Shown here: positions 6,519 to 29,523 of the stretch, one piece after another
Numbering within the stretch: the stretch's first letter is position 1
Layout of the letters: each line of letters begins with the position of its first letter
From: Methanomicrobiales archaeon HGW-Methanomicrobiales-2
GTDB lineage: Archaea > Halobacteriota > Methanomicrobia > Methanomicrobiales > Methanoculleaceae
DNA: 36,961 bases
NCBI GenBank assembly: GCA_002839645.1
Contig: PGYL01000020.1
Location: 7,411-44,371 of the forward strand
Direction: 5' to 3'
The notes under the pieces: model-generated
Seen by the model: only the letters and a program-made list of their open reading frames with translations
What the model was told of the DNA's origin: nothing
Database searches by the model: none
Program-made: the position numbers and the translations under genes

Positions 6519-6613
6519 GGACCGGAACGTTCCGGATGGCTTCCGCGATCGCCGGGGCGCTCTGCGTAACGTGACCCAAAATCCTTATACTCCTCATGAA
6601 CCTATGGTTTACT

Positions 6614-6844
6614 ATGTCCACGACGATCCAGCTTCAACCGGAGACCAAGTCCCGCCTGGACGCCCTGAAAGCCCATCCTCAGGAGAGCGATGACGAGACG
6701 CTCAACCGCATCATGGACGTATTATTCGATCCGGAACCGCTCTCCGAAGAGACGCTGCAGCGTATCGAGGAAGGGCTTGCAGACATGCGGGCCGGTCGCT
6801 GCCGCTCGCTTGAGGAGATCGCTCAGGAACTGGGCCTGGAATGA
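6614..6844 (+). CDS. Antitoxin of a second RelE-like module
   Basis: The protein has 76 residues from the ATG at 6614; an upstream in-frame ATG at 6596 would add six residues not seen in the paralogue. It begins MSTTIQLQPETKSRLDALKA and carries the acidic tail EPLSEETLQRIEEGLADMRA, matching the antitoxin at 5445-5681 in layout. It overlaps its toxin by 4 bases (ATGA). It should fold as a strand-helix-helix DNA-binding dimer and repress its own operon. Confidence 0.8.
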   Translation: MSTTIQLQPETKSRLDALKAHPQESDDETLNRIMDVLFDPEPLSEETLQRIEEGLADMRAGRCRSLEEIAQELGLE

Positions 6845-7113
6845 TCTGGCGGATCGAATTCACCCACGGAGCGGAGCGTGATCTGAAACATCTCCCGAAG
6901 TCCGATGGACAACGGATCAAAGATGAATTAACGGCTCTTGCGGAAGAACCGTTTCCCCATTTACATGTCAAAAAACTGAAAGGGCACCAGAGTAGCCCGC
7001 TGTATTCTCATCGTGTGGGGCCGTACCGGATCATTCTCGCCATCGAGAACGGGGTGATGACCATCACCGTGATTGAGGTCGGAAACCGGAGTAACGTCTA
7101 TCGGAAGTATTGA
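6841..7113 (+). CDS. RelE/ParE-superfamily toxin, second module
   Basis: The protein has 90 residues. It opens IWRIEFTHGAERDLKHLPKS, continues with the strand pair SHRVGPYRIILAIENGVMTI, and ends VIEVGNRSNVYRKY. The C-terminal Arg and Tyr correspond to those of the paralogue at 5188-5448 (GHRSSIYR), but His is replaced by Asn in GNRS. This may change activity or substrate. Translation is coupled to the antitoxin by an ATGA overlap. Downstream lies the first copy of the GC-rich repeat. Confidence 0.82.
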   Translation: MIWRIEFTHGAERDLKHLPKSDGQRIKDELTALAEEPFPHLHVKKLKGHQSSPLYSHRVGPYRIILAIENGVMTITVIEVGNRSNVYRKY

Positions 7114-8149: not shown

Positions 8150-8677
8150 CTACTCCCGCCACCGCGGCAGCGTCGAGAGGTACTGCCGCACCATCTCCTT
8201 CGCTCTATCCAGAGGCATCCCGAGGTTTGAAGCCATCATCGGCGCGTACTGCTCGACCGCCTGCTCCCGGGTAAGACCGGGCTCGACGAACCTCCCGTCC
8301 CGGTAGCAGTAGGTGCAGTAGTTCGTCGAGAGCGAACCGTCCGCCTCCGTCCCGGCGTCCTCGTCGCGGGCAAGGGGCATCCCACAGCTCCCGCAGGCAG
8401 GGATCTCCCTCCCGGTCCACCTCTTCAGGCACGACATCTGTTCCCGGGCGAACCGTTCTGCATTTGCGGCAGGGATGCAAAACAACTGCGACAGGATCGC
8501 GGAGCACTTCTCCGCCATCTCGTCGATGGTGATCCCGGGTTCGACGAAAGCACCGCTTTGGTAGCAGTTCGCGCAGTAGTCCTTCGAGAGTGTGCCGTCC
8601 GCTTCCGTCCCGAAATGCTCCTCTGCGCTCATCGGCATCCCGCAGCTCTGACACGATCGTATTCCGCCTGTTTCCAT
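8150..8677 (-). CDS. Tandem zinc-ribbon protein
   Basis: The protein has 175 residues made of two similar halves. Each has a CxxCGMP start (CQSCGMPMSAEEHFGTEADG; CGSCGMPLARDEDAGTEADG), then a YCxxCY pair (YCANCYQSGAFVEPGITIDE; YCTYCYRDGRFVEPGLTREQ), giving four cysteines per zinc site. Each half ends in a helical tail. This matches the 'putative zinc ribbon' family (Zn_ribbon_2-like) found in many anaerobes; the function is unknown. The start is fixed by AGGAGG 6 bases before the ATG at 8677, and a TATA-like box lies at about 8748-8758. It looks monocistronic. Confidence 0.8.
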   Translation of the reverse strand: METGGIRSCQSCGMPMSAEEHFGTEADGTLSKDYCANCYQSGAFVEPGITIDEMAEKCSAILSQLFCIPAANAERFAREQMSCLKRWTGREIPACGSCGMPLARDEDAGTEADGSLSTNYCTYCYRDGRFVEPGLTREQAVEQYAPMMASNLGMPLDRAKEMVRQYLSTLPRWRE

Positions 8678-8883: not shown

Positions 8884-9342
8884 CTACTCCCCGCGGGGCG
8901 GGAACCGGATCGTCATACTGCCGCCGGCGCCGGGTTCGAGCACCGCGTCGGCCTGGAGCGCCCGGGCATAGCCGGCGAGGTAAGGCCTGGCCACCCGGAC
9001 GTCTGCGAAGGCCTCCTGGATCGCCGCTGCTACGCCGTTGCCGCCGATGGCGATAACCACGCTCCCGTCGTCGGTGTCCGTGGACTCGCAGGGAATCCCC
9101 CACGTCAGGAGGAGCCCTTCCATCAGGGTTGGGGAATCGAACCGCTCCTCGGTGTGGGCGAGGAGCGCCGTTCCGTTCTCTTCGCCGAGCCGCCCGGCGA
9201 TGACGGTGATCCGCTCCGTAAGGCCGGGGGAGGCGTCCGCAAGGAGTTTCTTCACGAGCGGTCCGGCGACATCGTGCCGCCGCAGGGACCGGGCTACCTT
9301 GATCAACTGCCAGTCCCGGGCAAACGAAGTACCGGTGCGCAT
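8884..9342 (-). CDS. Unrecognised protein, third gene of an Lrp-type operon
   Basis: The protein has 152 residues and I do not recognise the family. It starts with a basic helix region (WQLIKVARSLRRHDVAGPLV), followed by a Gly-rich alternating strand pattern (GSVVIAIGGNGVAAAIQEAF) and a C-terminal stretch PGAGGSMTIRFPPRGE. There are no membrane segments and no cysteine clusters. It begins 1 base after the stop of the 95-residue membrane protein, so the two are very likely co-transcribed. Possible roles, such as sensing a ligand for the operon's regulator, are speculation. Confidence 0.7.
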   Translation of the reverse strand: MRTGTSFARDWQLIKVARSLRRHDVAGPLVKKLLADASPGLTERITVIAGRLGEENGTALLAHTEERFDSPTLMEGLLLTWGIPCESTDTDDGSVVIAIGGNGVAAAIQEAFADVRVARPYLAGYARALQADAVLEPGAGGSMTIRFPPRGE

Positions 9343-9343
9343 C

Positions 9344-9631
9344 TTATCCTCTCAGGATGCCGTAGGCCATCACACAGAGGCCGAAGATCACCACGATACG
9401 CGAGAAGACCGCCGACCAGAGGACAATGAACTCATCGGGCGTGAAGATACTCACGAGATCGGCAAACGTGATCCCCACGATCAGCGTGAAAAGCCCGTAG
9501 ATGAAGAGGAGCAGGGTCGGCTGCCTCACGATCCGGTAGGCATTGTAGATGACGGCGATGAGGAGCGCTCCGAGGAGGAGCGTCACAATCGCAAGCATCT
9601 GGTGCATGGTTTCAATCTGTATTCCGTTCAT
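9344..9631 (-). CDS. Small membrane protein with three transmembrane segments
   Basis: The protein has 95 residues with hydrophobic segments at about 10-30, 39-57 and 69-92. A conserved-looking loop (ADLVSIFTPDEF) lies between the second and third segments. It overlaps the upstream Lrp-type regulator by 4 bases (ATGA) and is followed 1 base later by the 152-residue protein, so the three genes form one unit. I recognise no family. It could be a small transporter subunit or a membrane partner of the third protein. Confidence 0.72.
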   Translation of the reverse strand: MNGIQIETMHQMLAIVTLLLGALLIAVIYNAYRIVRQPTLLLFIYGLFTLIVGITFADLVSIFTPDEFIVLWSAVFSRIVVIFGLCVMAYGILRG

Positions 9632-10059
9632 GTCTGTTCCTTGACCTTCCTCACCGAGATGATCGTCTGGATATCCTTCACTCCCGGAAGGCCGGAGAGG
9701 GGGACGAGCACGCTCCGCTTCAACTCGGATATGTTCTGCACCCGGACCTTGACGAAGAAGTCCCCGGGTTCAAGCACCTCATAGAGTTCAAGGATACTCG
9801 GGAGGTCCCGCATGAACGCCTCGACCTCAGGCTTTCCATCCGGGTGGACCCTGACGTTTAAAAATGCGACCAGCGTATGCTCGAAGCACTTCTGGTTGAC
9901 GACGATCGTGAACCGTTCGAGGATACCGGCGTTCTTCAGCTTCTCGATCCTTTTGAAGACTGTCGACGGTGCTATGCCCAGCATCGAGCCGAGCTCTGCC
10001 ATAGACATCCGCCCGTCTCTCTGCAGCTCCCGAAGGATCGCATCGTCGATCTCATCCAT
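9628..10059 (-). CDS. Lrp/AsnC-family transcriptional regulator
   Basis: The protein has 143 residues from the ATG at 10059; an upstream GTG or TTG start is less likely. The N-terminal winged helix-turn-helix reads MDEIDDAILRELQRDGRMSM, AELGSMLGIAPSTVFKRIEK and LKNAGILERFTIVV. The C-terminal part is the RAM ligand-binding domain, with FLNVRVHPDGKPEVEAFMRD and EPGDFFVKVRVQNISELKRS. Archaeal Lrp proteins bind amino acids or other small molecules and act as dimers to octamers. It leads an operon with a small membrane protein and an unknown protein, which it may control together with itself. Confidence 0.9.
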   Translation of the reverse strand: MDEIDDAILRELQRDGRMSMAELGSMLGIAPSTVFKRIEKLKNAGILERFTIVVNQKCFEHTLVAFLNVRVHPDGKPEVEAFMRDLPSILELYEVLEPGDFFVKVRVQNISELKRSVLVPLSGLPGVKDIQTIISVRKVKEQT

Positions 10060-10112
10060 TCTTACAATAGTTACAAGCACTTGGTTATTAAAATTGCGTA
10101 TCTGTTTTATAT
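10060..10112 (-). promoter_or_regulatory. Promoter and possible autoregulatory site of the lrp operon
   Basis: On the minus strand ATATAAAA (10105-10112) lies about 46 bases before the ATG, placing transcription start near 10080. Between it and the ATG lies CTTGTAACTATTGTAAG (about 10061-10077), an imperfect palindrome. Such sites next to Lrp-type genes are often their own operators. Confidence 0.4.
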
Positions 10113-10258: not shown

Positions 10259-11059
10259 TCAGTGTCGGTGAAAAATCGTTCCCCCGGGGTTGACGATCCT
10301 CCCGGGCCCCGGACCTCCGGCTGCTTCCCGGATGGCCGTATCGATGAACTCCCGGGCGGCGGCGAACCCCTCCCGCGCGGGCATTCCCCCGGCGAGGTAT
10401 GCCGTGAGCGCCGCAGAGAAGCAGCACCCCGACCCGTGCACCGAGTAGGGATAGCGCTTCCCGGAGAGCCGCATCACCCCTTCGGGGTCGACAAAGAGGT
10501 CGACTGCTGCATCGCCGGCGAGATGCCCCCCCTTCACCACCACGGCACGGGCACCGAGATCCAGGATCCGCCGGCCCGCCTCGGCCATATCCTCGACGGT
10601 CACGACGTTCATCCCGGCCAGCACCTCGGCCTCCGGGAGGTTTGGGGTGACAATTGCCGCCCGGGGGATGAGCAGCTCCGTAAGGTCCGCGACCGCATCC
10701 TCTCTAAGCAGCCGGTGGCCCGACGTCGAGACCATCACCGGGTCGATGACGAGTGCTGCTCCCTCCGGCAGGGCCTCCGCGACGGCCCGGACGTTCTGGG
10801 CGTTGCCAAGCATCCCGGTCTTCCACGCCCCGATGGCGAAGTCGTCGGCGACCGCCCCAATCTGAGCCCGCACCGCGTCCGCCGGGAGCATCCAGGTCCC
10901 CCGCACCTCGCGGGTGTTCTGGGCCGTGACCGCTGTTATGACCGTCAGCCCCCAGACGCCGAGCGCGGTGAACGTCTTTACGTCTGCCTGGATACCCGCC
11001 CCTCCCCCGGAGTCGGAACCGGCAATAGAACATGCCGCGATCATCTGCGCACCCATCAT
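10259..11059 (-). CDS. thiD: Phosphomethylpyrimidine kinase (HMP/HMP-P kinase)
   Basis: The protein has 266 residues, the normal length for ThiD without the ThiN domain fused in many archaea. The start region [20 protein letters not shown] contains the substrate-binding [12 protein letters not shown] motif. [14 protein letters not shown] and [20 protein letters not shown] hold the ATP site, the latter with the GSGC anion-hole segment. It phosphorylates hydroxymethylpyrimidine to its diphosphate for thiamine synthesis in the cytoplasm. The start could be the ATG at 11059, 11056 or 11044. The gene is divergent from the AIR-synthase-related gene across 86 bases. Confidence 0.92.
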
Positions 11060-11145: not shown

Positions 11146-12474
11146 ATGGATGTAGAAGAGATCAGCCGCCGGCACCTCGCTGCAGGCGCCCCTGACGATG
11201 AAATCGTGCGCATCCTTGCCCGGGATGTGCTCTCCATAAAACACCGCCGCGTGACCCCTGCCTACGCCGAGGCATTTGCCCGGGCGGTCCTTACCGAAGC
11301 GAAGAACTCGACCGGGCTTGCCGGCGACCTCTTTGCCTTCGAGTCCTCCGGCTCGACCATGGGCGAGTTCGGCGTCGGGTCACGGGGGTCCGGGGACTTC
11401 TTCGCCCACCGGCAGCTCGCCCGGATCATCGGCCGGACGGATGCTGCGGTCGGCGTCGACGAGATGGACGATGCCGGCGCCGTCCGTGCCGGAGGCGACT
11501 ACATCATCACCACCGTCGACGGGATGCACTCCCGCCTCTCCGACTTCCCCTTCCTCGCCGGGTTCCACGTCACCCGGGCGACGCTCCGCGACGTCTACGT
11601 GATGGGCGCAAAACCCGTCGCCCTCCTCTCCGACATCCATGTCGCCGACGACGGCGACGTCGCGAAGATATTCGACTACACCGCTGGCGTCTCGGCCGTC
11701 GGCGAGGCCATGGGCGTCCCGCTCGTCACCGGCTCCACCCTCCGTATCGGCGGGGACATGGTGCTCGGCTCCCGGATGACGGGCTGCGTCGGCGCCGTCG
11801 GGGTCGCCAGCCACCTCACCGCGAGAAAACAGATCGCCCCCGGCGACGTCCTCCTCATGACGGAAGGGGCCGGCGGCGGGACGATCGCCACCGCCGCGAT
11901 CTACTCCGGGTTCCCCGAGGTGGTCGAGGAGACGATCAACCTCCACTTCCTCAAGGCCTGCGAGGCGCTGCTTGCGAGCAGTGTCCTCCCCGCCATCCAC
12001 GCCATGACCGACGTCACGAACGGCGGCCTCCGGGGCGACGCCTACGAGATGGCCGAGACCGCCGGCTGCCGGATCGTCGTCGTCGAGGACGAACTCCGCA
12101 CCCTTGTCCAGCCCAAAGTCCTCGCCATGCTCGACTCCCTCCAGATCGACTACCTCGGCGTATCGCTCGACGCCCTCCTGGTCGTCGCGCCGCCGGAGGT
12201 TGCGCCCGAGATCCGGCGGGTCGTCGCGTCCGCCGGCGTCGCGATGAAAGAGGTCGGCTACGTCGAGAGAGGCTTGCCCGAGTCGGTCCTCTCGGTCGAC
12301 GGCGAGATCCGGGACTTCACGCCCCGGTTCCGGGAGTCGGCCTACACCCCGGTCAAGAAGGTCGTGGACGAAGATAAAAGGGATTTTGAGGAGATGAAGA
12401 TCGGGGTCGAGCGGGCGGCGGAGGCGGCGCTTGAGAAGAAGGAGCGGATCCTCTCCCGGCTCCGGTCCTCCTAA
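11146..12474 (+). CDS. AIR-synthase-related (PurM superfamily) protein
   Basis: The protein has 442 residues. After a helical N-terminal region of about 95 residues comes the PurM/HypE/SelD/ThiL fold. The N-terminal AIRS domain (about 105-215) includes [36 protein letters not shown] and the Asp-rich ATP/metal segment [15 protein letters not shown]. The C-terminal AIRS_C domain (about 225-385) includes [20 protein letters not shown] and [19 protein letters not shown]. It resembles the AIR-synthase-like proteins conserved in methanogens (methanogenesis marker 2 type), but the exact subfamily is uncertain. A charged tail ends in helices. The substrate is unknown; family members phosphorylate or dehydrate small substrates using ATP. 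Confidence 0.82.
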
Positions 12475-25361: not shown

Positions 25362-28300
25362 TCACGTCACCTTGATATAGCCGTGCCGGGGCTCGAGCAG
25401 GTCCCCGCCCCGTTTCAGCTGCTCGATGGTGTGCTCGATCTTGTCGCGGGAGAAGCCCTGCTGCACCAGGATATCGAGCACTTCATCGAGTTTCGCCTGG
25501 CCGCCGGAGTCGCCGGAGATGTTCCGGATCGCCTCCTTGACCGACCGGATGATGTCGCGCTGCGACTTCATGACGCCGGTCACGAGCTTGTCGATGTCGA
25601 AGCTCCCCGTCTCGGCGTCGTAGGCGACCTGCCGGAGACAGACGTCCACGATCTTTAAGATCCGATCGGTATCCTCCGTATCGATGGTGGTCGAGAGGCG
25701 CATCCGGGCGCTCGCCTCTGCAAGGCGGACCAGAGCCTCAAGCTGCCGGGCGGTGACCGGGACGGGCTTGTTCCCGCTCGCGAGGTCCCGGAGCCGCATA
25801 TAGTAGGAGATCAGCGCATCCTGGGCCCCGTCGGAGAGGATGGGGAAGCAGGTCCGCTTTGCATACGCGATGTACTTCCGCAGGAGCGTCGGGTCGATGT
25901 CGGGGATGACGGGCGCAAGCGCCCGCTGGATGTAGGCATCGTCGACGTCGGGCAGCGGCGTGTATGCGTGCTGCTTGATCAGTTCGCCGACGGAATGAGT
26001 CTTGATGATGTGGTGGGCGATGGCCCCGTCGCGCTCGGCTTCCGGCTGGTCGGTCATCACGAAGATGAGGTCGAACCGCGAGAGGAGCGAGGGCGGCATG
26101 TCGATCTGCTCGCCGATCGGGATGAACTGGTCGAACCGTCCCAGTTTCGGGTTCGCCGCACCGAGGAGCGCACACCGGGACTTTAAGGTCGCGGTGATGC
26201 CGGCTTTTGCGACCGAGATCGAGTTGCCGCACCAGATCGGGATGCCGTTTCGCCGGACATACAGGATGTGGTTTGGGACCTCGAGGCAGTAGATCGTGCC
26301 CTTATACGGGCGCTTCTCGATCTGCCGCTGCCCGTTTGAGTTGACGTTCGGCTCGTTCTGGCCGTCGCGGATGAAGGTCACCTGGAAGATATCGTGGGTC
26401 ACGGTCGAGGTCCCGCCCCGCGGGGTGGGTGTGACGGTCCCGGCCTCCCGCATGAGATGGACGTTTCCGGACCACCCCTTCTTCAGCAGGAGTTCGGTGA
26501 CGTCGTCGGCAAGCCTCTTCGAGGAGGTGATGTATATCGAGACCCCGGTCGTTTTGTTGACGTAGCCGTCCCCGAGCATCAGCGCGTCGAGGAGTATCCC
26601 GATCTGCTCCGGGGGGAGGCGTTTTGCGTAATCGGGGACGTACTTCTCGTGACATTTTCCAAACGGCGCAAGGTGTTGTGCGAGCTGCTTTGCGTTGATC
26701 GCAAAGTTTGCACCGTCGTACGAAAAGCGGAACGGCAGCCTCTCAAGACACTGCCGGATCTTTTCGACCGACTCAGGAATCTTTTGCGATATGATCACGC
26801 GGTAGGGAACCTGCGTCTGGTGATGCCGCTGGACGGACCCTTCGGAGAGGAAGTAGCCCAGGAACTCAAGCCAGTCATCCATCCCGATGCGGATGGGGTC
26901 GGTGAGTTTTCCTTTTGAGTTCTGGTTCGCGAACTTGGTGACGGGCGGGATCTCGTAGGTCTCCTGCCGTTCCCCCGCCCATGCGGCGTTCTTCTTGAAC
27001 CGCATCCTTTTATGGGTGGGGACCTCGTCCATGCGGATGAGCTGGAATCCCTCCCACTCGTCGGCACGCCGGTTCAGGTTGACGTACATCCGGTGGTTCG
27101 GCGTGACCGCGAGGTCCACCTGCCGTGACTTGATGTAATACAGTTCCCCGTCGTACGCCGATGCCACAAAATCGGACGGGGATGCGTACTCAAGCCTGCC
27201 GTCGGGAGAGAGCGTCGCGACACGGTCGTCTGAGGTTACATCCCGGAATAATTTCCAACCGGCCTCCGTAAGGACTTCGGTCACGTCGTCGTAGCACTGC
27301 TGCTCCATCGCCTCGTGGAGCGCGCTCCGGTCCTCTTTCGCCATCTTGTCCATCTCATCGACGGCTGCGATCCCCATATCGGCGAGGACCAGCGCACCGG
27401 CTTCGAGCGTCCAGCGGCCGTCGCCGAACTCGTCCTTGACGGCCGTCGCCGTCAGCCCCGCGGATGTCGACGACTTGCCGCTCGTGTAGATCCCCCGCGG
27501 CGAGAGTTTCACGACGTAACGCAAAATTTGACTCTTTGCGATACCCGGGTCGCCGACCAGGAGGACGTGGATATCGCCGCGGAGGCGGGAGCCGTCCGGC
27601 ATCTCCTTGGCGATGCCGCCGAAGAGCTGGAGCGCGATCGCCTCTTTCACGTCGTCGGTGCCGTAGATCGTCGGCGCGATCGACCGGGCGATCTTCTTGT
27701 AGATCGAGGGATCGCGGGCGAGCGCCATGATCTTCGTCTCGTCCTCCTCGGTGATCGAGACCTCCTCGAACTCCTTCTCGCCGATCTCGATGGAGTTGCA
27801 TTCGAGGTAGATATCAAAGAGTGTGCTCTTCTGGCCGGAGTTGATCCTCTGCACCGATCGCAGGATGCCGTTCACCACCACCCGGTCACCCGGGGCGACC
27901 ATGCCGGTGAGGTCGTCGGTGACATCGATATCGAGCGTCTGGGGCTGTTCGCCGCCCCGGAGACCCTCGGGCGACTCCTGGACCCGGAGTTTCTGGGCGT
28001 CGACGAACCGGCACCGGTTCATCACCAGGTCAAGCCGGGTCTTCCTCTCACAGTTCGGGCAGAAGTCAGGCTCATCGAACCGCCCGTAGCCCTGGGGGAC
28101 CGGCTCGGTGTTCTTCCCGCAGGAGCGGCACTTGAAGACCGCGCTGACGATCCGGGGGCGCACCTCGGTCGTCTTTCTGAGGATCCCCTCGATGCCGATG
28201 AACGTGTTGATCTGGTCGGCCCTGATATCCCGGACGTCGGTCTTCTGCGGCAGGTTCGTGAACCGGATGTTGATCTGCTCCGGGTCCTGGCTATCTTTCA

Positions 28301-28538
28301 GTTTGATGAGTTTGTTCTGGACAATCGCGTCCCGGATATCCCCGAGCACCTTGCCCGGGCTCCGCAGGAGCTCGAATGCGAGCCTGTTATTCAGGATCTT
28401 TCGAAAATCGATGATGAGCGACCGCTTATGAGGGTACTCGCGGGAGAGCTCGGCGAGCTCCCGCTTGTACTGCTTCTTTAAGAATTTCGTCCACTCACCG
28501 ACGACATCGGTGACCTCAACGGTTACCTCTTCGGTCAC
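25362..28538 (-). CDS. mcm: MCM replicative helicase containing an intein
   Basis: The precursor has 1058 residues from the GTG at 28538, chosen for GAGGG 6 bases upstream; this leaves 10 bases after the rfcS stop. The N-terminal domain contains the zinc site (CRSCG and CPNC, residues 137-163). The AAA+ core has Walker A VGDPGIAKSQ (329-338), Walker B AAVDEMDKM (391-399) and, after the intein, sensor and Arg-finger sequence (AKAGITATLKSRCALLGAAN; LSRFDLIFVMTD). A winged helix ends the protein. The host protein after splicing has 700 residues, normal for archaeal MCM, which unwinds DNA at the fork as a hexamer. rfcS lies just upstream in the same unit. Confidence 0.95.
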   Translation of the reverse strand: MTEEVTVEVTDVVGEWTKFLKKQYKRELAELSREYPHKRSLIIDFRKILNNRLAFELLRSPGKVLGDIRDAIVQNKLIKLKDSQDPEQINIRFTNLPQKTDVRDIRADQINTFIGIEGILRKTTEVRPRIVSAVFKCRSCGKNTEPVPQGYGRFDEPDFCPNCERKTRLDLVMNRCRFVDAQKLRVQESPEGLRGGEQPQTLDIDVTDDLTGMVAPGDRVVVNGILRSVQRINSGQKSTLFDIYLECNSIEIGEKEFEEVSITEEDETKIMALARDPSIYKKIARSIAPTIYGTDDVKEAIALQLFGGIAKEMPDGSRLRGDIHVLLVGDPGIAKSQILRYVVKLSPRGIYTSGKSSTSAGLTATAVKDEFGDGRWTLEAGALVLADMGIAAVDEMDKMAKEDRSALHEAMEQQCYDDVTEVLTEAGWKLFRDVTSDDRVATLSPDGRLEYASPSDFVASAYDGELYYIKSRQVDLAVTPNHRMYVNLNRRADEWEGFQLIRMDEVPTHKRMRFKKNAAWAGERQETYEIPPVTKFANQNSKGKLTDPIRIGMDDWLEFLGYFLSEGSVQRHHQTQVPYRVIISQKIPESVEKIRQCLERLPFRFSYDGANFAINAKQLAQHLAPFGKCHEKYVPDYAKRLPPEQIGILLDALMLGDGYVNKTTGVSIYITSSKRLADDVTELLLKKGWSGNVHLMREAGTVTPTPRGGTSTVTHDIFQVTFIRDGQNEPNVNSNGQRQIEKRPYKGTIYCLEVPNHILYVRRNGIPIWCGNSISVAKAGITATLKSRCALLGAANPKLGRFDQFIPIGEQIDMPPSLLSRFDLIFVMTDQPEAERDGAIAHHIIKTHSVGELIKQHAYTPLPDVDDAYIQRALAPVIPDIDPTLLRKYIAYAKRTCFPILSDGAQDALISYYMRLRDLASGNKPVPVTARQLEALVRLAEASARMRLSTTIDTEDTDRILKIVDVCLRQVAYDAETGSFDIDKLVTGVMKSQRDIIRSVKEAIRNISGDSGGQAKLDEVLDILVQQGFSRDKIEHTIEQLKRGGDLLEPRHGYIKVT
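26223..27296 (-). mobile_element. Intein with LAGLIDADG homing endonuclease in mcm
   Basis: The intein has 358 residues (415-772 of the precursor). It begins with Cys (CYDDVTEVLTEAGWKLFRDV) directly after HEAMEQQ and ends in ...GIPIWCGN before the extein Ser of SISVAKAGI. Block B is VDLAVTPNHRMYVNL (T..H). The endonuclease motifs are FLGYFLSEG and LLDALMLGDGYVN, both with the acidic catalytic residue, so homing activity may be retained. Blocks F and G include GTIYCLEVPNHILYVRRNGI. The residue before the final Asn is Gly, where most inteins have His. The insertion site lies after Walker B in a highly conserved stretch of MCM. Confidence 0.93.
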
Positions 28539-28548
28539 GGCAGAACCC

Positions 28549-29523
28549 TCACCGGTGCTGCCCTGCGGCGAGAACGAACCGGGCGAGCAACGCCTCCATC
28601 TGGATGTCGCTGCTTGCTCCTTCGGAGAGGCGGAAATCAGTCTCGCCGAGGGCATCTATCAGTCTCACTTTGAGTGTCCGGTCGATGTCGCGCTGGACCA
28701 GCGCCCGGTAGCACTGGTTGATCAGCTCGTTTGGGGCGATGCCCCGGACGTGCGTCAGTTCGGAGAGCGCCTGTTCCGCCTCATCGAACTTTCCTGCTAT
28801 CGAGAGGTCGAGGAGCTCGTTGATCTCCGACGGGCGGGCCGTTGAGGTGATCTCGTAGATCATCTCTTCGTCGATGGTGGGCCGGAGGATGGCGGCGCCC
28901 TGCAGGGCGTTGATCGCCTTCCTCATATCCCCGGAAGCGACATAGACGATGGCGTCGAGCGCCCCCTCCGTGACGGTGAGGCCTTCGACTGCGGCAATCC
29001 TCCGGGTCTCCTCGATGACCGCCTCGCGGTCGAGCGGCCTGAACCGGTAGATGGCGCACCGGCTCTGGATGGGGTCGATGATCTTCGAGGAGTAGTTGCA
29101 CGAGAGGATGAACCGGCAGGTCCGGGCGTAGGTCTCCATCGTCCTCCGGAGGGCGGCCTGTGCGTCGGTGGTGAGCGCGTCCGCCTCGTCTAAGAAGAGG
29201 ACCTTGAACGTCGCGCCGGCAAGCGGCGATGTCCGGGCGAACTCCTTGATCTGGTTTCTGACGACGTCGATGCCGCGCTCGTCGGAGGCGTTCATCTCGC
29301 GGAAGTTCATCTGCCAGGAGTCGCCGAAGAACTCCCGCGCGAGCGCCACGGCGGCGGTCGTCTTCCCGATCCCCGCGCTGCCCGTGAAGAGAAGGTGCGG
29401 CAGGTTGCCGGTCTTCACGTAGGATTGGAGGCGCACCACGATATCCTTCTGTCCGACCATCTCATCGAGTCTTCTGGGCCGATACTTCTCTATCCAGATG
29501 GTGTGGTTGCCGTCCATTTGCAT
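28549..29523 (-). CDS. rfcS: Replication factor C small subunit
   Basis: The protein has 324 residues from the ATG at 29523; an ATG at 29517 is also possible and would remove only MQ. RFC boxes are classical: [20 protein letters not shown] (box II), [19 protein letters not shown] (Walker A), [39 protein letters not shown] (Walker B DEAD) and [20 protein letters not shown] (SRC). It forms the clamp loader with the large subunit, loading PCNA with ATP. It shares an operon with mcm, 10 bases apart. The divergent RfcS2-like protein is at 15505-16515. Confidence 0.95.

Follow-up and report, generated by a model that had tools for sequence, protein, structure and literature searches.

The window, i.e. 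the whole stretch of 36,961 nucleotides that was analyzed, carries on its minus strand a unit of three small genes, encoding an Lrp/AsnC-family regulator, a membrane protein and a soluble protein. These genes, the DNA in front of them and the two neighboring genes are:

9628..10059, minus strand: Lrp/AsnC-family regulator, 143 aa, ATG start (Pfam domains; start by homologue alignment)
9344..9631, minus strand: 95-aa three-helix membrane protein, putative remote DUF7521 relative (sub-threshold DUF7521 match, AlphaFold model)
8884..9342, minus strand: 152-aa soluble protein with a predicted V4R/H-NOX/TRAPP-Bet3 fold (model and fold search)
10060..10104, -45 to -1 from the ATG, minus strand: conserved block in front of the cassette, candidate for a core promoter with operator (column identity)
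10061..10077, minus strand: CTTGTAACTATTGTAAG, candidate auto-operator (single copy in the window; position kept in Methanoculleus-type loci)
10259..11059, minus strand: thiD (HMP-P kinase), upstream neighbor outside the core cassette (TIGR00097, 281 bits, over cut-off)
11146..12474, plus strand: AIR-synthase-related protein, divergent neighbor outside the core cassette (AIRS/AIRS_C Pfam matches)

The ORFs of the regulator and the membrane protein overlap by 4 bp, and a 1-bp gap separates the membrane protein from the soluble protein. The coordinates, the strand and the overlapping or abutting arrangement of the three ORFs in the first-pass annotation were thus correct as ORF readings. The start of the regulator was fixed at the ATG at 10059 by the alignment of homologues; a longer form starting at the GTG at 10080 would run through CTTGTAACTATTGTAAG, but the homologues do not support it and it was discarded. 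Rfam and tRNA scans of the window found nothing, and a bacterial-type promoter scan was set aside because it has no meaning in an archaeon.

The three genes form a conserved cassette. All of them are present in 40 of 40 loci sampled from the same order (L062-L101; the named ones include Methanoculleus, Methanomicrobium and Methanocalculus), and the order Lrp, membrane protein, soluble protein is kept in 18 of 20 distant loci (L138-L157). The distant loci were taken from the 40 membrane-positive genomes outside the order that came from an earlier scan of 294 phylum genomes with same-order profiles, in which the soluble protein was found in 32 and the membrane protein in 63 genomes, 40 of the latter outside the order. 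The two exceptions, L156 and L157, carry HTH_20 regulators followed by a DUF7521-like protein. With the window included, 59 of 61 loci have the three genes in one order and on one strand. The distances in this set, with start codons estimated by script, are -25 to 69 bp between the Lrp and membrane genes and -4 to 109 bp between the membrane and soluble genes. The soluble gene of L142 was recognized by reading the next ORF and is matched by a fuller profile that already included it. No other neighbor common to all 20 distant loci was found by eye.

When the 294 phylum genomes were searched with profiles that included the distant members, the membrane protein was matched in 95 and the soluble protein in 55 genomes, and the matches fell into two clear classes. 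Strong matches to both proteins (E <= 3.1e-22) occur in the same 48 genomes, on one contig and always adjacent, the two matches being -1 to 115 bp apart, and the best weak-class matches were 1.3e-9 for the membrane and 1.6e-8 for the soluble protein. The 48 cassette genomes are spread over nine families (f1, f2, f5, f6, f9, f14, f18, f30 and f31), and the remaining 246 genomes have no strong pair in these profile searches. Within the order, the soluble and the membrane protein were found in the same 67 of 150 genomes (lists compared by eye), belonging to 14 of 35 genera; 83 genomes are without the cassette by these searches. Conservation of the three-gene order, suggested as a check in the first-pass annotation, is therefore found within Methanomicrobiales and beyond, though patchily.

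In family f14 a fourth gene, encoding an Rce1-like membrane protease (Pfam, 1e-14 to 4e-14), lies directly after the soluble gene in L139, L141 and L142, and a similar frame was seen by reading after the soluble gene of L140. This protein could be a regulator-processing protease.

The two neighbors are less widely shared. Of the 40 same-order loci, 38 have thiD and 37 have the AIRS-like gene; in the 20 distant loci, of 6.5-8 kb, neither was matched. Both are missing in L080, whose contig begins 1.9 kb before the Lrp gene, and in L093, and the AIRS-like gene is missing in L081, at a contig end. The AIR-synthase-related protein of the window (442 aa) reaches no NCBIfam cut-off, with thiL, selD, hypE and sll0787 all far below. 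Downstream of the cassette, at 8150-8677, lies a gene for a protein with two matches to the Putative zinc ribbon domain (PF12674, 1.2e-50); this protein was found in 6 of the 40 same-order loci. Elsewhere in the window, two overlapping small ORFs of 82 and 90 aa at 6596-7113 have no NCBIfam match at 1e-5; the second presumably resembles a RelE/ParE-type toxin. At 25362-28655 a 1097-aa MCM is encoded, the model match of which is split in two stretches with a further replicative-helicase match at 662-739, and this suggests that it carries an insertion such as an intein.

Transcription factors of the Lrp family are common in archaea, and each is usually taken to be a one-component sensor that works on its own. 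The regulator of the window matches both Pfam domains over cut-off, HTH_AsnC-type (8e-16, 58 bits, cut-off 27) and AsnC_trans_reg (4.2e-10, 39.8 bits, cut-off 25), as anticipated from its first reading as Lrp/AsnC, and PH1519 is its closest solved chain (E 1.7e-23). The ligand loop in the RAM domain of Lrp/AsnC regulators is of the TGxYD type with a canonical Gly. PH1519 has TGDYD at this position, unlike the cassette regulators, where LEPxD is found in 50 of 59, LGxxN or FGxxN in 8 and LQPYD in 1. The best match of the window regulator was the cassette Lrp in all of 10 chosen cassette genomes, and the best Lrp matches in three chosen genomes without the cassette had E-values of 6e-9, 3e-8 and 2e-4. 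A tree was built from 34 sampled Lrps of the cassette and 23 further ones, and all 34 were placed in one group with a support of 99/97. Three non-cassette rows lie inside this group, namely L179 and L190, both from G175, and L195, which has a very long branch. Therefore, the cassette regulators form one Lrp lineage with few exceptions. L179 and L190 are Lrp paralogues on one G175 contig and have no membrane or soluble partner in their locus. In a PADLOC analysis of six proteins, the HTH part of the regulator gave matches to CARF/Csa3-type models (best 2.6e-6). A defense system was also considered and set aside: no PADLOC match was obtained for the soluble and membrane proteins from the window, L149 and L138, and the L139 soluble protein gave one weak match (JetD, E 0.012).

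The first-pass annotation had recognized no family for the two small proteins, and indeed neither has a match over the curated cut-offs in Pfam or NCBIfam, nor was a clear match to an unrelated family found for them. For the 95-aa membrane protein the best of the sub-threshold matches is DUF7521 (PF24365), with 22.5 bits against a cut-off of 27. The L149 homologue scores 26.6 bits against the same cut-off, and 25 of 25 diverse membrane homologues match DUF7521 at E <= 0.1 (best 2.2e-8). Judging by these profile matches, the membrane protein is a remote relative of DUF7521. We know of no function for DUF7521, and a literature search under this name found no paper. Three membrane segments had been read from the sequence, and AlphaFold likewise gave three long helices (H2-35, H38-63 and H67-94); model confidence varied between five membrane-protein models, with mean pLDDT values of 87.1, 81.0, 80.9, 66.8 and 63.3. 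A fold search with the membrane model returned no informative match (best E 2.7), and a PDB sequence search with the membrane profile returned nothing significant. In L149 numbering, G20, Y28, L39, G45, F47 and G80 are invariant in 25 diverse members and Y31 is nearly so. Y28, Y31 and L39 flank a basic loop between TM1 and TM2, which, because it is basic, would face the cytoplasm according to the positive-inside rule. The mean column identity of the membrane protein is 57%, versus 42% for the soluble protein.

The membrane protein family was found in 28 of 29 genomes of a haloarchaeal class, often in several copies per genome. Thirty haloarchaeal loci were compared, namely the top locus from each of 28 genomes and two more, with further copies outside the sample. 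In 26 of them a gene related to the HTH regulators of L156 and L157 lies directly upstream of the DUF7521 gene (25 of 29 when L212, which covers the gene of one of the two HTH queries, is left out), where the HTH_20 assignment of the haloarchaeal-type regulators is based on Pfam for these two queries. No gene for the soluble partner was found in the 30 loci.

The 152-aa soluble protein of the window has no match at E 10 in Pfam or NCBIfam. Its model (pLDDT 84.9) gave VIA-align Z-scores of 9.6 to 2c0j_B (TRAPP; rmsd 3.3, 120 aligned) and 8.9 to the PoxR sensor domain (4.7, 132), values near 9 being only moderately above the typical best Z of this tool of 7-8. Among the 50 fold matches listed, 49 are TRAPP, BcsD, PoxR/MopR/DmpR (sensor domains), YslB, H-NOX or guanylate cyclase, of which BcsD and YslB are counted to the V4R/H-NOX/TRAPP fold group by our own reading of the list. 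Foldseek returned the same fold group with weak E-values (best 1.8e-3). From the model, the soluble protein is predicted to have the V4R/H-NOX/TRAPP fold, a ligand/redox-sensor fold. Among 24 soluble homologues, ATC_hydrolase was matched by 5 and MetOD1 by 3 at E <= 1 in Pfam (ATC_hydrolase best 1.6e-5). The best distant homologue scored 26.2 bits to ATC hydrolase (PF14196, cut-off 28.1) and 23.1 bits to MetOD1 (PF18546, cut-off 23.8), so that neither cut-off was reached. V4R (PF02830) is not among the 12 families matched at E <= 1, a search in which HMMER filters drop most weak matches. An NCBIfam scan of the 24 homologues gave nothing meaningful (best E 0.0099) and a PDB sequence search with the soluble profile nothing significant; in the latter, H-NOX appears at E 0.32 and above among unrelated chains, which agrees with the fold match and is no evidence alone. 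H-NOX heme sensors have a conserved proximal histidine. In the soluble family, no His is found in the invariant or near-invariant columns of 41 same-order rows or of the 24 diverse rows.

A pattern of four cysteines (C...C...C...C) characterizes the distant soluble homologues, the first three Cys columns being filled in 18 of 18 and the fourth in 16 of 18. The complete pattern is present in 16 of the 24 diverse rows, and the 6 same-order rows of that alignment have none of the four cysteines. Likewise, 0 of 41 same-order rows carry the four-Cys pattern and 0 of 41 have a Cys at the C-x2-Y position, single cysteines occurring elsewhere. The soluble protein of the window is also without the V4R-type three-Cys C-terminal cluster. 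Since the four-cysteine pattern is missing from it, no ligand is suggested for this protein. In L154 and L155, from the two f31 genomes, the soluble profile match runs past a TAA stop, and the ORFs end before the fourth cysteine column. Well conserved in the order is an N-terminal SFARDWQLIK stretch, with F7, W11 and K15 invariant in 41 rows. This N-terminal helix has low model confidence (pLDDT 56-61) and precedes the start of most fold matches; it may be an interaction helix.

To the DNA upstream of the cassette, a palindrome-like sequence before the start had been ascribed. CTTGTAACTATTGTAAG indeed lies just before the start codon, 2-18 bp before the ATG at 10059 on the minus strand, and has a single occurrence in the window (0.01 expected when up to 3 mismatches are allowed). 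Its palindrome is weak: 10 of 17 positions agree, 4% of upstream 17-mers score as high, and a reading as a direct repeat is equally good (TTGTAA, period 9, 6 of 8). In a comparison of 21 Methanoculleus-type upstream regions (the window and 20 others), the stretches of the upstream block have column identities of 0.68-0.81, versus 0.55-0.59 further upstream. The most conserved stretch extends from -45 to -19, with the consensus CAAATACGGAATTTTAATAA and identities of 0.81 at -45 to -36 and 0.76 at -36 to -19, and identity is still raised to -2 (0.71 at -18 to -2). CTTGTAACTATTGTAAG is therefore part of a conserved promoter block and not its best part. Its best match is at -18/-19 in 20 of the 21 Methanoculleus-type loci, with 0-6 mismatches and L115 as the exception; at the same place in 11 loci of other genera it is absent. 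When up to 2 mismatches were allowed, the genome had 8 sites versus 9 for a reversed control, so CTTGTAACTATTGTAAG is not enriched, no regulon is seen, and its use as a regulon mark was rejected. The position pattern and the lack of genomic enrichment fit a candidate auto-operator or a part of the promoter.

Since the three genes are kept together across many archaea, they probably form one undescribed signaling unit. Our main reading, to which we assign a probability of roughly 45%, is that the trio is a sensory cassette, with an Lrp repressor under the control of the membrane protein and the V4R-fold protein. The regulator would bind the conserved block before its own operon and repress the operon, possibly together with a small number of other genes. 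The sensor side would consist of the three-helix membrane protein and its soluble V4R-fold partner; they would pick up a signal, either at the membrane or in the cytoplasm, and, through contact with the regulator, control its access to DNA. Most simply, one state would keep Lrp at the membrane, in the way that SdpI captures SdpR. For the wider form with four cysteines, a redox or metal signal is possible. The order of the window no longer has the cysteine pattern, and there the pocket or a protein contact should carry the signal. The initial proposal had been a small sensing or transport system. Its sensing half gains from the predicted sensor fold and from the haloarchaeal membrane relatives behind DNA-binding regulators; for transport nothing was found in support.

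Counting against the sensory reading is that the regulator has its own ligand-binding domain, intact by Pfam, and may need no partner. The patchy distribution of the cassette, the two partnerless G175 paralogues and the lack of a visible regulon count against it as well. As the main rival, the regulator could be an ordinary local feast/famine regulator that senses a small molecule with its own ligand domain and switches on a small permease- or channel-like membrane protein and a V4R-fold enzyme, e.g. an ATC-hydrolase-like one. Regulators commonly adjoin their own target genes, and by sequence the soluble family comes closest to ATC_hydrolase. However, the ATC_hydrolase matches stay under the curated cut-off, and the 41 same-order rows are without the cysteine pattern though the gene and the gene order stay. 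The haloarchaeal membrane relatives, moreover, follow regulators of another family and have no soluble gene beside them, so a partner of regulators fits better than a metabolic one, and we consider the feast/famine explanation unlikely. The cysteines of the distant homologues would suit another arrangement, in which the V4R-fold protein senses redox or metal in the cytoplasm and acts directly on Lrp, the membrane protein only anchors or protects this sensor, and the lineage of the window is derived and no longer redox-sensing. This would be a split version of MsvR, which joins an HTH and a V4R domain and has three conserved cysteines affecting DNA binding, as described in the consulted part of PMC3729527. 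Yet all three genes are still kept in the same-order loci, where the pattern and the Cys at C-x2-Y are gone, and the membrane protein is better conserved than the soluble one, unlike a passive anchor. We regard this arrangement as improbable. A thiamine-related unit, in which the cassette works with the adjoining thiD, would draw on the presence of thiD and the AIRS-like gene in nearly all same-order loci, but it is weakened by their absence from the distant loci, and ~200 bp with the conserved promoter block separate thiD from the cassette; such a link is very improbable.

The sensory reading might be extended beyond the cassette. Three-helix proteins of the DUF7521 type could be a general archaeal docking subunit for winged-helix regulators, of HTH_20 type in haloarchaea and of Lrp type in methanogens and Archaeoglobus-like archaea. 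In the Lrp form, the V4R/H-NOX-fold subunit would complete a membrane receptor that captures an Lrp repressor and lets it go again, a so far undescribed type of kinase-free transmembrane signaling in archaea, and in the order of the window a cysteine-free sensor would have replaced a cysteine-based one. Taken as a whole, this extension is possible and rather doubtful. The cassette itself suggests that some archaeal Lrps may be the outputs of membrane receptors. Two unannotated protein families thereby gain a testable role, and the order that is without the cysteine site, with the rest kept, offers a natural experiment.

The building blocks are of known kinds. Their combination was not found described in literature searches, mostly at abstract level, for DUF7521, MetOD1, V4R with archaeal regulators, Lrp with V4R, AsnC with Methanoculleus, Lrp with Archaeoglobus and A. 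fulgidus locus names. MM2440/MM2441 of Methanosarcina mazei was considered as a possible described relative and compared by its description; in the part of PMC3510493 consulted, the regulator gene comes second, after one for a hypothetical protein. MsvR, also from methanogens, resembles the cassette in coupling an HTH regulator to a V4R-type domain in which cysteines are conserved. As far as it is described in the consulted text, it differs in being one polypeptide with another HTH and no membrane protein, and the protein of the window is without MsvR-type cysteines. For the soluble protein, the superfamily of MetOD1, ATC hydrolase, V4R and HNOB shares the predicted fold and, with the distant homologues, a C-terminal cysteine cluster; in the section consulted, Galperin et al. 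(2018; PMC5847659) place MetOD1 in one group with HNOB, V4R and ATC hydrolase and point out a cluster of three cysteines. The soluble family differs in staying below the curated cut-offs, in having no REC fusion and in same-order rows without the cysteine pattern.

SdpR of Bacillus subtilis is an ArsR-type regulator. It is an autorepressor, captured by the membrane protein SdpI, and the likeness to the cassette lies in a small DNA-binding regulator encoded in one operon with a polytopic membrane protein and in proposed autorepression that is relieved by the membrane partner, according to the part of PMC1626106 consulted. SdpR/SdpI differs in the regulator family and has no third V4R-fold gene; membrane capture is reported there and is a proposal here. 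The haloarchaeal HTH_20 and DUF7521 pairs have a regulator that is not Lrp, and no soluble partner was found in their 30 loci, but they share with the cassette a winged-helix-type regulator with a DUF7521-type membrane protein directly behind it.
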